Assembly (NCBI RefSeq): GCF_001424425.1
Contig: NZ_LMPT01000001.1
Coordinates: forward strand, 794,137-858,136
DNA length: 64,000 nucleotides
Reading direction: 5' to 3'
From: Acidovorax sp. Leaf191
GTDB taxonomy: Bacteria > Pseudomonadota > Gammaproteobacteria > Burkholderiales > Burkholderiaceae_C
A model generated the notes under the pieces. It did not search any database. It saw nothing but the letters and a program-made list of their open reading frames with translations, and had not been told where the DNA came from. Every line of letters starts with the position of its first letter. Positions within the stretch are counted from its first letter, which is position 1. Position numbers and translations under genes: made by a program. Positions 3,223 through 59,485 of this stretch are shown one piece after another.

Positions 3223-3235
3223 AGCCCGGCTTTCA

Positions 3236-3300
3236 GGGGTTGAAAAAGACCCTGTCGCCCATTGGAAGAGCGCGAGCAGCTATCGATTCGATAGCTGCTC
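3236..3300 (-). repeat. Family-1 palindromic element, copy A (intergenic)
   Basis: A copy of the dispersed element described in the findings, oriented on the minus strand. The first hairpin is almost perfect (GCTATCG/CGATAGC). The GCTCGCGCT segment and a degenerate tail ending in TTTTTCAACCCC follow. It lies between ligC and map, and its palindrome doubles as the ligC terminator. Confidence 0.6.
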
Positions 3301-14977: not shown

Positions 14978-15367
14978 ATGCAAGGACTGCACCTCACTGC
15001 CGATCTCCGGGACTGCCGCTGCGCCCCCGTGTGGCTGCTGGACGCCGCCGCGCTGGGCCAGGCCTGCGCCGACGCCGTGCGCCACGCCGGGCTGCAGCCC
15101 GTGGGCCAGGTATTTCATGAATTCCCGGCCACAGCGCACGGCCCGGGCGGGGTGACAGCTACGATTTTGCTAGCTGAGTCGCACTTGTGCGTGCACACCT
15201 GGCCCGAGCAGCGCGCCGTCACGCTCGATGTCTACGTGTGCAATTTCGGCGCCGACCATTCGGACAAGGCGCGGGCGCTGATGGATGCGCTGCTGGCGTT
15301 GTTCGAGCCTTCCTCGGTGCAGCGCCACGCGCTGCAACGGGGCACCGTGCCGGAGCTGGCGGCATGA
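14978..15367 (+). CDS. speD: S-adenosylmethionine decarboxylase proenzyme
   Basis: Small prokaryotic SpeD/SpeH-type enzyme (129 aa) giving the aminopropyl donor for spermidine synthesis. The self-processing site is LLAESHLCVHTWPE: cleavage before Ser68 forms the pyruvoyl group. C-terminal motif YVCNFGADHSDKARAL is typical. No spermidine synthase gene is adjacent. Its stop codon overlaps the start of the next gene (ATGA). The codons around the active site (60-71) are unusually AT-rich for this gene and resemble the family-1 repeat, but the encoded residues are normal for the family. Confidence 0.9.
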   Translation: MQGLHLTADLRDCRCAPVWLLDAAALGQACADAVRHAGLQPVGQVFHEFPATAHGPGGVTATILLAESHLCVHTWPEQRAVTLDVYVCNFGADHSDKARALMDALLALFEPSSVQRHALQRGTVPELAA

Positions 15368-16134
15368 GCGCGCTGAACCCGGCCGTCCCTTCCCAGGTCC
15401 CCGCGCTGCTGCTGGCCGCCGGCCGCGGCGAGCGCATGCGCCCGCTGACCGACACCACCCCCAAGCCGTTGCTCGCGGTGCAGGGGCTGCCGCTGCTGGA
15501 GTGGCACCTGCAGGCGTTGCAGGATGCGGGCGTGCAGCGGGCTGTCATCAACACCGCCTGGCTCGGGTCGCAGATCAGCGAGCGGTTTGCAGATGTTTTT
15601 GGCCTCCACCGCTTGCTGGACGGGCGCAAGCCGCTATCAATTTCATACTCCCACGAGGGTGTGGACTTCGGTGGTGCGCTTGAAACCGCCGGCGGCATCG
15701 CCCGCGCGCTGCCCCAGCTGGGGCCGGTGTTCTGGCTGGCGGCGGGCGATGTGTTTGCGCCCGACTTCGTGTTCGACAGCGGCGCAGTGCAGGCTTTTGC
15801 CGCCAGCGACCGCCTGGCGCACCTGTGGCTGGTGCCCAACCCGGCGCACAACCCGCGGGGCGACTTCGGCTTGTCGCCAGAGGGGCTGGCGCTGAACCTC
15901 GCACCCGGCGATCCTGCGCCCCGTTACACCTACAGCACCATCGCCCTGCTGCGCGCAGAGCTGTTCGCGCTGCCTTGGTGCGACATTCCGGCCGGCAACC
16001 CGCAGGGCATTCAGGCGCCGCTGGCCCCGCTGCTGCGCCGCGCCATGGACCAGGGCCGTGTCAGCGCAGAGATCTACCCCGGCCGCTGGACGGACGTGGG
16101 CACGCCCGAGCGGCTGGCAGAGCTCAACCGCTGA
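15364..16134 (+). CDS. Sugar-phosphate nucleotidyltransferase, MurU-like
   Basis: 256-aa GT-A-fold nucleotidyltransferase with the signature LLLAAGRGERMRPLTDTTPKPLL near residue 15. It resembles MurU, which makes UDP-MurNAc from MurNAc-1-phosphate in cell-wall recycling, and other mannose/glucose-1-phosphate transferases. The metal/sugar motifs GGALETAGGI and GDVF, and ending GRWTDVGTPERLAEL, support this. Residues about 78-96 (DVFGLHRLLDGRKPLSISYS) are encoded by a family-1 palindromic element lying in antisense orientation, probably an extra loop. Start overlaps the speD stop by four bases. The exact sugar substrate is inferred. Confidence 0.82.
   Translation: MSALNPAVPSQVPALLLAAGRGERMRPLTDTTPKPLLAVQGLPLLEWHLQALQDAGVQRAVINTAWLGSQISERFADVFGLHRLLDGRKPLSISYSHEGVDFGGALETAGGIARALPQLGPVFWLAAGDVFAPDFVFDSGAVQAFAASDRLAHLWLVPNPAHNPRGDFGLSPEGLALNLAPGDPAPRYTYSTIALLRAELFALPWCDIPAGNPQGIQAPLAPLLRRAMDQGRVSAEIYPGRWTDVGTPERLAELNR
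15595..15650 (-). repeat. Family-1 palindromic element, copy I, inside the nucleotidyltransferase gene
   Basis: Read on the minus strand it shows GTATGAAATTGATAGC, then a perfect CTTGC-N9-GCAAG stem and the tail GAGGCCAAAAAC, all in the order seen in the intergenic copies. The host gene reads through it in antisense, without a stop, between two conserved motifs. Confidence 0.65.
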
Positions 16135-35568: not shown

Positions 35569-36312
35569 ATGACCACCGCCATCCTCAGCGCCCTCCCCGA
35601 AGAACAGGCCGGCCTGGTCCACGCGCTGGCGCACCCCCAGCGCATCACCCGCGCCGGCCGCTCGTTCTGGCGCGGCGAGCTGCACGGGCGCTCTGTCGTG
35701 CTGGCGCTCTCGGGCATCGGCAAGGTGGCGGCGGCCACCACCGCCACGGCGCTCGTCGAGCACTTCGGCGTCGCGCGCATCGTGTTCACCGGCGTGGCGG
35801 GTGGCCTGGGTGACGGCGTGAACGTGGGCGACGTGGTGGTGGCGCAGAGCTACCTGCAGCACGACATGGACGCATCCCCGTTGTTCCCGCGCTGGGAGCT
35901 GCCCGGCTATGCACGCGCGGTGCTGGAGTGCGATGCACCATTGTCTGCTCTGCTTTTGATAGCTGCTCGCGATTGCCTGATGGGCGGTAGCGGCCATTGT
36001 TCTTCGCAATCTGAGGTCCGCAGCGTGCACCAGGGCCTGATCGCCAGTGGCGACCGCTTCGTCTCCAGCGCCCAGGAGTCGCAGCGCCTGCGCGACGCCC
36101 TGCGCGCCGCCGGCCACGAGGTCCTCGCCGTCGAAATGGAAGGCGCCGCCGTGGCCCAGGTCTGCCTGGACTACAACGTGCCCTTCGCCGCGATGCGCAC
36201 CATCTCCGACCGCGCCGACGACTCCGCCCACGTCGACTTCCCCCAGTTCATCCAAACCGTGGCGAGCCGGTACGCAGAGCACATCGTCGGCAAGTTGTTG
36301 CAGTTGCTATGA
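35569..36312 (+). CDS. mtn: 5'-methylthioadenosine/S-adenosylhomocysteine nucleosidase
   Basis: 247-aa purine-nucleoside phosphorylase-fold enzyme that hydrolyses MTA or SAH to adenine and the thio-sugar (methionine salvage, detoxification of methylation products). Motifs: SGIGKVAAATTATALVEHFG near residue 50, FTGVAGGLGDGVNVGDVVVA, the catalytic Glu in VEMEGAAVAQ and Asp in TISDRADDS. Residues about 126-148 (LLLIAARDCLMGGSGHCSSQS) are encoded by a family-1 repeat inserted in the sense orientation, just before the conserved VHQGLIASGDRFV. The stop codon itself lies in another copy of the same repeat. It should remain active since the insertion is in a surface region before the nucleoside-binding segment (inference). 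Confidence 0.88.
   Translation: MTTAILSALPEEQAGLVHALAHPQRITRAGRSFWRGELHGRSVVLALSGIGKVAAATTATALVEHFGVARIVFTGVAGGLGDGVNVGDVVVAQSYLQHDMDASPLFPRWELPGYARAVLECDAPLSALLLIAARDCLMGGSGHCSSQSEVRSVHQGLIASGDRFVSSAQESQRLRDALRAAGHEVLAVEMEGAAVAQVCLDYNVPFAAMRTISDRADDSAHVDFPQFIQTVASRYAEHIVGKLLQLL
35944..36012 (+). repeat. Family-1 palindromic element, copy B, inside the nucleosidase gene
   Basis: Shows TTGATAGCTGCTCGCGATTG, then CTGATGGGCGGTAGCGGCC and a TTCTTC tail, matching the order of the intergenic copies. The left arm of the first hairpin is partly decayed. Its codons (TTG ATA GCT, CAT TGT TCT) are unlike the surrounding GC-rich gene. Confidence 0.65.
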
Positions 36313-36368
36313 AATATGTAGCTACTGGCGCTTTATAGAAAAGCGGTAGAGGGTGCTTTGGCTTAAAA
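36306..36368 (+). repeat. Family-1 palindromic element, copy G (provides the mtn stop codon)
   Basis: GCTATGAAATATGTAGC hairpin, then GGCGCTTTATAGAAAAGCGG and the tail GAGGGTGCTTTGGCTTAAAA. The TGA of the nucleosidase gene is within the first arm (36310-36312). Confidence 0.65.
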
Positions 36369-36704
36369 ATTGAGTATTTTCATGAGGGGTGCGCCGCCGC
36401 CTTCATCCAGCAGCCGTCGACCTAGCTCACCCAAGACTCCAGTTAGCCCGCCTGCAGAAGGCACCCCATCGCCGGTACCCAGCCAGAGCGCAGCGAATGG
36501 CTCCCTCCATGTTCAGGGCACGCCGCCAGTTCACCCCCCGCCGCCATCGCCAGCGCCACCGTGGATCCGGCTTCGCCGGTCCACCGGAGGCTTCCCCCCT
36601 GGGGGGCTGAGGAACTGCGGCTCCGAGCCTGCCTGCGCAGGCTTGGACAGTTCCGAAGGGCTGACGCCTCTGGCGGCGGCGCGTAGGTCCGCGCTACAGG
36701 GGGG
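36313..36704. other. 392-bp non-coding interval with two repeat families
   Basis: Between mtn and corA (convergent). It holds family-1 copy G, then a Pro/Ser-coding open frame without family resemblance, and the family-2 palindrome near 36561. A C6/G6 hairpin lies just before the corA stop. I see no gene in it. Confidence 0.5.
36558..36612. repeat. Family-2 palindrome, copy 1
   Basis: CCGTGGATCCGGC-N3-GCCGGTCCACCGG palindrome followed by CCCCCCTGGGGGG and GCTGAGG. The same sequence, with few changes, recurs at 59486-59560. It lies downstream of the minus-strand corA gene, in the position of a terminator. Confidence 0.55.
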
Positions 36705-50876: not shown

Positions 50877-52046
50877 TCAGAACGGGGCTATGCCCAGCAG
50901 GGCGGCCGCCTGCAGCGCCGTGGCGCGTGCGGCTTCGGGCGTGGGACCGGTCACGTTGAGGTGGCCCATCTTGCGGCCGCGCTTGGCGTCGCGCTTGCCG
51001 TACAGGTGCAGATGGGTGCCGGGCAGGGCCAGCACCTCGGCCCAGGGCGGGGTCTGCGCGGCGTCGCCGTGCGCGAACCACAGGTCGCCCAGCAGGTTCA
51101 GCATCACGGCGGGGCTGTGCTGGCGCGGCGGGGTCAGCGGCAGGCCCGCCATGGTGCGCACCTGCAGCTCGAACTGCGACACGTCACAGGCGTTCTGGCT
51201 GTAGTGGCCGCTGTTGTGCGGGCGCGGGGCGATCTCGTTGACCACCAGGCTGCCGTCCTGCAGCACGAAGAACTCGACGCACAGCACACCCACGTACTGC
51301 AGGCCTTCTGCTACAGATTTTGCAGCTGCCACCGCTTGTGCAGCAAGCGGTAGGGGCAGATTCTGTTCATGAACCTCGGTCACGGCCAGGATGCCGTCGC
51401 GGTGCAGGTTGCGCTGCACCGGCAGGTGCACCATGGCGCCGTCGGCTCCGCGCGCCACGATCACCGAGCATTCGAGCGCCAGCGGCAGCATCTTCTCCAG
51501 CACGCACGGGACCTTGCCCACGGCATCCCAGGCGGCGGCCAGCTCGGCGGCGGTCTTCACACGCACCTGGCCCTTGCCGTCGTAGCCCATGCGGGCGGTT
51601 TTGAGAATTCCTGGAAGCAGGTCTTCGGACACGGCGCCCAGTTGCTCGGCCGTCTCGATCACCGCATACGGCGCGCAGGGCACGCCGCAGCCGACGAAGT
51701 GCGCCTTCTCGCGGGCGCGGTCCTGCGCCACCGACACGGCGCTGGCTGCGGGCGACACCGGGCGCTGTGCGGCCAGCGTGGCCAGCGCAGCAGCGGGCAC
51801 GTTCTCGAACTCGGTGGTCACCGCGTCGGACACGCGGGCCAGCTCGGCCAGGCCCGCCGGGTCTTCGTAGCCGGTCTGGATGTGGTGGTGGCTCACCAGG
51901 CCGGCAGGGCTGTCGGGGTCGGCGTCGAGCACGGCCGTGAAGTAGCCCATGGCCTGCGCCGCGTGCACGAACATGCGGCCCAGCTGGCCGCCGCCCAGCA
52001 CGCCCAGCGTCGCGCCAGGAAGGAGAGGCGTTGTAGACGCGGTCAT
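50877..52046 (-). CDS. purK: N5-carboxyaminoimidazole ribonucleotide synthase
   Basis: 389-aa ATP-grasp enzyme that makes N5-CAIR from AIR, bicarbonate and ATP in purine synthesis. Motifs: [20 protein letters not shown] at the N-terminus, [13 protein letters not shown] in the ATP loop, and [30 protein letters not shown] near residue 255. Residues about 227-247 are encoded by a family-1 repeat read in antisense; protein length is normal, so it replaces rather than adds residues. It overlaps purE by four bases and is followed by the sua5 gene. Confidence 0.94.
51308..51368 (+). repeat. Family-1 palindromic element, copy C, inside purK
   Basis: On the plus strand CTGCTACAGATTTTGCAGC, then a perfect ACCGCTT-N7-AAGCGGT stem and the tail GGGGCAGATTCTG. 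The purK frame crosses it in antisense with codons such as AAA TCT GTA GCA that are rare in the neighbourhood. Confidence 0.6.
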
Positions 52047-52698: not shown

Positions 52699-53607
52699 AT
52701 GATTGACGTCACCGTAGAAAACTTTGAAGCCGAGGTGGTTGCCGCCTCCATGGATGTGCCCGTCCTGGTGGACTTCTGGGCGCCCTGGTGCGGGCCCTGC
52801 AAATCGCTCGGTCCGGTGCTGGAAAAGCTGGAGACCGAATACGCCGGCCGCTTCAAGCTCGCCAAGGTCGACTCCGACCAGGAGCAGCAGCTCGCGGGCA
52901 TGTTCGGCATCCGCAGCATCCCCACCTGCGTGCTGCTCATGAACGGCCAGCCCGTGGATGGCTTCATGGGCGCGCTGCCCGAGGGCCAGGTGCGTGCCTT
53001 CCTCGACAAGCACGTGCCCACCGAAGACCAGCTCACGGCCGAAGCCGAAGAGGAAGAAGCCTTCGAAGCCCTGGCCGAAGGCGACACCGACACGGCGCTC
53101 GAGAAGCTGCAGCATGCCGTCGTGACCGACCCCGCCAACGACGACGCCCGCTTCGACTACGTCAAGCTGCTGCTGCAGCTGGGCCGCGAAGACGACGCCA
53201 AGGTCGCCTTCGCCCCGGTGATCGCCAAGGCCCCGGGTTCGCGCAAGCTCGGTGCCCTCAAGACCTGGATGGATGCTATTGATTTCGTAGCTTTGAGCGC
53301 TTATGGAGAGAGCGCTGGAGCCGATTTTGATGCCAAGATCGCCGCCAGCAAGCGCGACTTCGACACCCGCTACGCGCGTGCCCGCTGGCTCATGGCCCGC
53401 CAGCGCTGGACCGACGCGATGGACGAATTGCTCGAAATCCTCATGCGCGACAAGGCCTGGGGCGAAGAAGCCGCCCGCAAGACCTATGTCGCCATCCTCG
53501 AAATCATCGAGCCGCCCAAGGTGAAGGTGGCCGACGGCCAGATCCCGCCCGACGACCCGGTGGTGGCCACCTACCGCCGCCGTTTGTCGAGCGTGGTGCT
53601 CAGCTGA
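52699..53607 (+). CDS. cnoX: Thioredoxin-TPR co-chaperone CnoX/YbbN-like
   Basis: 302-aa protein with an N-terminal thioredoxin domain (about 1-110, active site FWAPWCGPCKSLGP) and a C-terminal TPR-like helical domain (about 115-300). CnoX proteins hold oxidised proteins and hand them to GroEL or DnaK. The CGPC pair is present, unlike the redox-dead E. coli version. ATG at 52699 gives the family N-terminus IDVTVENFEAEVV; a start at 52636 would add 21 residues. A family-1 repeat encodes residues about 193-211 (AIDFVALSAYGESAGADFD) in sense orientation between two TPR helices. Confidence 0.88.
   Translation: MIDVTVENFEAEVVAASMDVPVLVDFWAPWCGPCKSLGPVLEKLETEYAGRFKLAKVDSDQEQQLAGMFGIRSIPTCVLLMNGQPVDGFMGALPEGQVRAFLDKHVPTEDQLTAEAEEEEAFEALAEGDTDTALEKLQHAVVTDPANDDARFDYVKLLLQLGREDDAKVAFAPVIAKAPGSRKLGALKTWMDAIDFVALSAYGESAGADFDAKIAASKRDFDTRYARARWLMARQRWTDAMDELLEILMRDKAWGEEAARKTYVAILEIIEPPKVKVADGQIPPDDPVVATYRRRLSSVVLS
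53275..53331 (+). repeat. Family-1 palindromic element, copy E, inside cnoX
   Basis: GCTATTGATTTCGTAGC followed by a perfect AGCGCT-N9-AGCGCT stem and the tail GGAGCCGATTTTGATGCC. Closest coding copy to the intergenic copy at 59243. Confidence 0.7.
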
Positions 53608-59242: not shown

Positions 59243-59305
59243 GCTATTGATTTGATAGCTGCTTGCGCTGGATGGATAAGCGGCAGAGCCTGTTTTGGCT
59301 CAAAT
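59243..59305 (+). repeat. Family-1 palindromic element, copy D (best intergenic copy)
   Basis: GCTATTGATTTGATAGC hairpin, TGCTTGCGCT-N6-ATAAGCGGC second hairpin and GAGCC-TGTTTT-GGCTC third hairpin. This is the copy used to define the family. Confidence 0.75.
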
Positions 59306-59485
59306 GGGGCCTGTGAAAGTACCTCGGCCCACCGACCCTCGTCCCGGGATTCGCGGACCCCGGGTACGCCTCACGCCAAGGCAAAGGGCCAAAGAGCTTC
59401 ACACCCCCGAACGCCCCCATCGTCACGGCCCACCAGAGTAGAGCCCCCAGACCGTAAACACTGGCGCTCCCCCAACGCCAGTGCA

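Follow-up and report, generated by a model that had tools for sequence, protein, structure and literature searches.

A coding copy of a two-hairpin repeat within mtnN of Acidovorax sp. Leaf191

The mtnN gene and its two repeat copies

The 64,000 nucleotides of Acidovorax sp. Leaf191 analysed here (the window) contain mtnN, which encodes an MTA/SAH nucleosidase, at 35569–36312 on the + strand (247 amino acids plus stop). The product is identified by profiles, by an AlphaFold2 model and by its fold. It matches the NCBIfam MTA/SAH nucleosidase family NF004079 with an E value of 4.8e-84 (281.5 bits against a cut-off of 169) as well as Pfam PNP_UDP_1, and the closest named relative of the protein is that of Acidovorax sp. 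Leaf78 (96%). The model, based on 30 aligned sequences, has a mean pLDDT of 90.1 and a pTM of 0.90. Its nearest fold is 4f1w_A (Z 34.4, rmsd 1.4, 228 of 231 residues aligned), and the E. coli MTAN structure 1jys_A matches with Z 33.3; the fold is that of MTAN. A first-pass annotation of this DNA had named the gene and its frame correctly and had described the enzyme motifs on both sides of an unusual segment as intact, which they are.

That segment is a copy of a 64-nt repeat, at 35947–36010 on the + strand, in sense orientation and translated with repeat position 1 as the first base of a codon. A covariance model, for whose training the mtnN open reading frames were masked, matches it full length (64 of 64 model positions) with 29.4 bits and an E value of 1.7e-7. 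A stricter profile of 40 copies, made by also dropping four in-gene training copies, gives 20.5 bits (E 1.7e-5 in 64 kb); its best match in the reversed window reaches only 6.8 bits (E 0.34). The copy is the lowest-scoring of the seven in the window with an E value below 1e-6, and its second stem, as drawn by the covariance model, has two broken pairs. Synonymous versions of its coding sequence did not reach the observed score in any of 3000 trials with the codon usage of the gene or in any of 3000 with uniform usage, and a repeat of this null gave 0 of 2000 with each. When the null was extended to 13 matching mtnN genes, the score of L013 was reached twice in 3000 by both nulls, and those of L020 and L059 once each in 3000 with uniform codons only. 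For the window gene, chance or codon bias as the source of the match is rejected on these nulls and on the stricter profile. The third codon positions are 45% G or C within the copy and 92% outside it, so the earlier description of the codons as foreign to the gene was right; its placing of a sense-strand copy at 35944–36012 was correct to within 3 nt.

The copy does not lie in a single structural element. Residues 123–139 of MtnN form one confidently predicted helix, and by the model and the family alignment the repeat-encoded residues 127–139 (35947–35985, + strand) fall within it. Mean pLDDT is 99 for residues 121–130 and 88 for 131–140. The repeat-encoded residues 141–148 (35989–36012, + strand) are the only run with pLDDT below 50, a predicted disordered loop. 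The shorter, repeat-free members L035, L078 and L084 have their helix in register with this one when the family is aligned, and the gaps come after it. Pairwise phmmer matches to solved nucleosidases instead put a gap at or near the repeat-encoded first half, and the net excess of MtnN there is 12–13 residues in the four matches listed; the repeat amounts to 21 codons. Since the structural alignment covers 228 of the 231 residues of 4f1w_A, there is little room for an unpaired helix. The segment had been taken for a discrete insert between two parts of the enzyme. The phmmer gap and the net excess agree with an insert and the structural alignment does so less well; as to position in the fold, the first half, being a helix end shared in register with shorter members, does not bear the proposal out as worded, and disorder is limited to 141–148. 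A discrete peptide insert peculiar to this lineage is rejected, as most of the genus has the copy and its first half lies in a predicted helix.

A second copy, at 36306–36369 on the + strand, contains the stop codon TGA of mtnN (36310–36312). It scores 63.8 bits (E 1.1e-18), though as a member of the training set. An alignment of ten genomes has CTATGA or CTATAA at the mtnN stop in nine, and a degraded version in one (G015). The repeat begins with CTA, and CTA stands directly before the stop (as CTATGA, CTATAA or CTATAG) in 32 of the 80 mtnN genes, out of a set of 81, that have the stop in reach, a count of sequence context and not of scored repeat matches. The supply of stop codons by repeats has already been described for GTAG REPs (PMC3733652).

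The repeat family and its copies in other genes

The profile of the repeat was seeded by an intergenic copy near 59243 and built from the window and fetched loci with mtnN coding sequences masked (63 rows). Its training set consists of 44 distinct copies above 25 bits, among them four in-gene copies from other genes and no internal mtnN copy. These align without gaps over 64 columns, the alignable unit being 54–64 nt. The consensus can fold into two hairpins: GCTAT(7)ATAGC, then two bases, a stem of 9 bp closed by a loop of 7 bases, and lastly GGCCnATTT. Standard pairs occupy 79.9% of paired cells, a share that falls to 51.3% or less if the partner columns are shifted, but covariation over and above column composition is weak (42 in 500 shuffles were as high). 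The GC content of 42 copies is 39–56%, with a mean of 48%.

By the covariance model there are seven copies in the window with E values below 1e-6 and 35 in 400 kb of other stretches at E <= 0.01. The genome holds at least 150 copies, and multiplying up from 35 per 400 kb gives about 500; in the genome scans scoring was limited to the top 150 or 88 candidates of each genome, and copy numbers from them are therefore lower bounds. The window copies at 3295, 15649, 36306, 51310, 53275 and 59243 were used in training and their covariance-model scores are therefore inflated, whereas the internal mtnN copy and the 35 of the 400-kb sample were not in the training set. Two of the window copies are intergenic: that at 59243–59306 (+ strand, 71.2 bits), 8 nt past the upstream gene, and that at 3232–3295 (− strand, 43.9 bits). 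In syntenic stretches of ten genomes, intergenic copies vary between species. Matches at E <= 1e-6 occur in 25 of 60 genomes of the bacterial family (one per genus, its own included). At the same threshold there were none, among the best 88 candidates each, in 58 genomes from other families of the order or in one further genome of the same family that was drawn in the order-wide scan. The window has no match to Rfam at gathering score, and a known Rfam RNA family was dropped as the identity of the repeat.

Presence within genes is not confined to mtnN. Over 464 kb, 11 of 42 copies (35 from the sample and 7 from the window) lie wholly inside predicted genes, seven antisense and four sense. The other 31 comprise 22 intergenic copies, five that overlap the 3′ end of a sense gene and four that partly overlap an antisense gene. 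(Gene context comes from a purpose-made gene caller that operates without a start-site or homology check.) A short palindromic repeat is, on these counts, a sizeable source of protein sequence. Each of the ten hosts other than mtnN has an NCBIfam or Pfam match at E <= 1e-10, several of them under the cut-off of the family. By profile they are PurK, a YbbN-like thioredoxin/TPR protein, a MurU-like protein (below cut-off), HscA, TilS, an NADH dehydrogenase-like flavoprotein (solved relative 9mqy), a CobU-like protein (below cut-off), TcuA, an amine-oxidase-like protein and a CitE/RipC-like protein (below cut-off). Three are in the window, where covariance model, strict profile, context and relatives all bear on the copy. 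The MurU-like uridylyltransferase gene (15364–16134, + strand) has an antisense copy at 15586–15649 (− strand), purK (50877–52001, − strand) has an antisense copy at 51310–51373 (+ strand), and the YbbN-like gene (52699–53607, + strand) has a sense copy at 53275–53338 (+ strand). Among same-genus loci (the best 30 of 60 genomes) the copy is present in 28 of 30 for PurK, 26 of 30 for YbbN and 29 of 30 for MurU. None of the 11 in-gene copies is equalled in score by recoding with the codon usage of its own gene (0 of 2000 trials for each). Uniform recoding reaches the HscA copy in 2 of 2000 trials and the CitE/RipC-like one (L131), a weak copy of 19.6 bits, in 6 of 2000. The sense copy in the HscA gene (L138, 4441–6303) has 31.9 bits by the covariance model and only 17.6 by the strict profile.

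All four sense in-gene copies use one shared frame, the YbbN-like gene having the same frame as mtnN. With in-gene copies removed, this frame is free of stops in 17 of 40 training copies. Of the remaining sense frames one is open in none of the 40 and the other in 10, and the antisense frames are open in 5, 18 and 19. The related peptide is detectable in otherwise unrelated proteins. In a ranking whose peptide set excluded in-gene copies, the repeat-encoded segment came first within its host protein in each case: 1 of 227 in MtnN, 1 of 600 in HscA, 1 of 282 in YbbN and 1 of 232 in the L008 protein. In L008 (1491–2249 of its locus, genome G000, contig C21) the copy seems, by eye, to encode most of a signal peptide, MKNTIVLIAACAVWTSVSA. 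The L008 protein has a marginal copper-binding Pfam match.

The mtnN copy among relatives

A set of 81 mtnN genes (that of the window and 80 relatives), which the profile never saw, shows how widely the internal copy is shared. It is present at the same codon with at least 10 bits in 25 of the 81, and as a weaker match in five more. The best orthologous copy, in L018, scores 34.3 bits (E 1.2e-9) and its hairpin is nearly perfect. The window copy has 17.4 bits by the same profile and is eroded. Among same-genus loci (the best 30 for each gene from 60 genomes searched, its own included) the mtnN copy recurs at this codon in 23 of 30, with a score of at least 10 bits in 21, and seven show none; these genomes overlap with the named relatives of the 81-gene set. 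Such sharing, in 23 of 30 same-genus loci and 25 of 81 genes, marks the copy as old and ancestral. On a tree of mtnN computed without the repeat segment, 24 of the 25 carriers at 10 bits or more are among the 49 rows of the Acidovorax side, the remaining one being Rhodoferax sp. KJN.1 (L060), and the carrier label requires nine changes. The mtnN of L076, on a contig filed as a Chitinophaga pinensis metagenome-assembled genome, groups as Malikia-like on this tree, so that a faulty bin or a misnamed one is probable.

Whether all relatives, including those free of the repeat, have the same segment and length, as would speak against the earlier proposal, has a mixed answer. Some that lack a DNA match have a protein of similar length (Delftia L041 249, Diaphorobacter L048 252 and Acidovorax L015 247 residues, compared with 247 here), and others a shorter one (Acidovorax Leaf160, L035, 240 residues; Variovorax, L078, 238). 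Given these mixed lengths, the source of the segments of non-carriers may be an ancestral repeat, since recoded in lineages of high GC content; alternatively the loop of MtnN may predate the repeat. No empty site beside a filled one was found for mtnN in syntenic stretches of ten genomes, so that the arrival of the copy is deduced rather than seen.

Conservation was assessed with pairs of orthologs whose DNA identity is under 93%. In mtnN, synonymous codon identity is 0.688 inside the copy and 0.662 outside (60 of 183 outside windows are as high), and amino-acid identity is 0.53 inside against 0.81 outside. The synonymous values inside and outside the copy are 0.709 and 0.711 for PurK and 0.630 and 0.704 for YbbN. 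For MurU the value is raised within the copy, 0.821 against 0.641, and none of 192 windows is as high. Amino-acid identity is lower inside the copy in all four genes. The two measures together point to an inherited, loosely constrained stretch in three of the four, MurU being the exception. Selection on the hairpin in mtnN is unsupported, its synonymous conservation not being raised.

Entry into genes and relation to known repeats

For seven of the eleven in-gene hosts the net length was measured against homologues, and in all seven the gain near the copy is below 21 codons. PurK gains 0 or +1 relative to six PurKs from other families, it aligns ungapped across the copy with Burkholderia PurK structures, and in 34 PurK rows this stretch is equally long whether or not the copy is present, L266 alone having three more residues. 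The gain is +4 to +6 for YbbN, +11 to +12 for MurU (4 of these after the copy), +4 to +6 for TilS, +6 to +7 for the NADH dehydrogenase-like protein and about +12 for the CobU-like one. Values below 21 codons fit a process in which host codons were overwritten, and equally an insertion that was trimmed afterwards.

The best explanation, at a probability of about 85%, is that the mtnN segment is an old, eroded copy of a two-hairpin repeat, which became coding ahead of most of the diversification within the genus and by now passes on by vertical descent and is tolerated. The interspersed repeat occurs in part of the bacterial family to which Acidovorax belongs. Tolerance would follow from three features: one sense frame is often stop-free, its peptide (about A-I-K-L-I-A-A-C-A-x-W-x-S-A-x-G-x-F) is helix-compatible, and the copy by prediction occupies a helix end and part of a variable loop. 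The peptide in MtnN would have no special function. The copy presumably arrived by ectopic spread of the repeat, with some host sequence lost then or later.

How host sequence was lost divides two accounts. Plain insertion, with 64–66 nt added to mtnN and host sequence trimmed only later, as the earlier proposal implies, is a serious possibility, if somewhat short of an even chance. The MtnN stretch is indeed longer than in the four solved nucleosidases listed, TilS, the NADH dehydrogenase-like and CobU-like proteins, YbbN and MurU are also longer than their homologues near the copy, and the phmmer gap suits insertion at least as well as it does replacement of the helix. However, not one of the seven measured genes has gained 21 codons, PurK has gained next to nothing and is ungapped against the Burkholderia structures, and no target-site duplication was seen in the syntenic stretches of ten genomes, where the flanks have diverged. 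In the other account, which must be thought unlikely, the repeat would enter genes by overwriting, host codons being exchanged for those of the repeat and kept where the translation fits the local fold. The route might be ectopic conversion or the annealing of a single-stranded repeat copy at the replication fork. PurK would be its clearest case, since its length shows no net change against outgroups and the helix encoded by the repeat keeps the register of the ancestral helix, and mtnN would be another.

It is improbable that the copy is kept for a selected function, its mRNA hairpin or its peptide serving to regulate or stabilise the message or the enzyme. Retention across much of the genus, the second copy at the stop codon and the raised synonymous identity in MurU would accord with a function. 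Set against them, synonymous conservation is not raised in mtnN, PurK or YbbN, the second stem of the window copy is broken at two pairs, and seven of the 30 same-genus loci show no copy. Coincidence, by which a variable loop with AT-rich codons merely resembles the repeat, can hardly be entertained. The window copy is weak in comparison with others, and shorter non-carriers also have a helix at the position of its first half, but neither observation meets the codon nulls (0 of 3000 and 0 of 2000), the E value of 1.7e-7 or the orthologous copies of up to 34.3 bits. Since the in-gene copies are old and common to many sequenced species with and without the repeat, the question of insertion versus replacement can be asked directly, as can that of the later adaptation of the protein sequence. 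A caution for this bacterial family is that some stop codons and the lengths of some loops may come from repeats.

Coding repeats that are in frame are already known, from the Rickettsia palindromic elements (RPE) and from intragenic REPs, and the Acidovorax repeat adds a further case. What is unusual is that the length gained is below the 21 codons of the repeat in the seven measured hosts, and about zero in PurK. RPEs are interspersed and occur in frame within genes that are not related to one another, where the peptide they encode is conserved; they are about 150 bp and form ten families in Rickettsia (PMC10969869). The in-frame copies in MtnN, HscA, YbbN and the L008 protein, with their related peptide, are like them. 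Unlike them, in a comparison by description only, the Acidovorax unit is 54–64 nt and belongs to another bacterial class. RPE-4 and RPE-6 have been equated with short CGTC repeats (PMC3733652), so that size alone cannot set the Acidovorax repeat apart from RPEs.

GTAG and CGTC REPs are high-copy hairpins of 20–40 bp with a GTAG or CGTC tag at one end, mostly near gene ends though some are wholly inside open reading frames (PMC3733652). The Acidovorax repeat resembles them in its high copy number, in having some copies within genes and in having one at a stop codon. It differs in its two hairpins and, on inspection of the consensus, in the absence of a GTAG or CGTC tag at the foot of the main stem, and by the features compared it appears not to belong to this class. 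The main text of PMC3733652 has no occurrence of Acidovorax, Delftia or Polaromonas. The beta-proteobacterial repeat element (BRE), known from Bordetella and Comamonadaceae, is likewise short and dispersed with some coding copies; it is about 90 bp, averages 69% GC in Bordetella and is tandem at some loci (PMC3110155). The GC content of 39–56% and the length of 54–64 nt set the Acidovorax repeat apart from BRE by description only. The repeat was not named in the literature searched, which lay outside most subscription papers, and six 16-base strings from it retrieved no paper in that search. A RAYT-driven REP, GTAG REPs being associated with a RAYT (Y1 transposase), is not favoured: the genome has one match to a Y1 transposase (PF01797), at 260704–260985 of contig C12 of G000, and no convincing copy of the repeat lies near, the best match in the 20 kb around it being a weak one of 11.3 bits (E 0.051).
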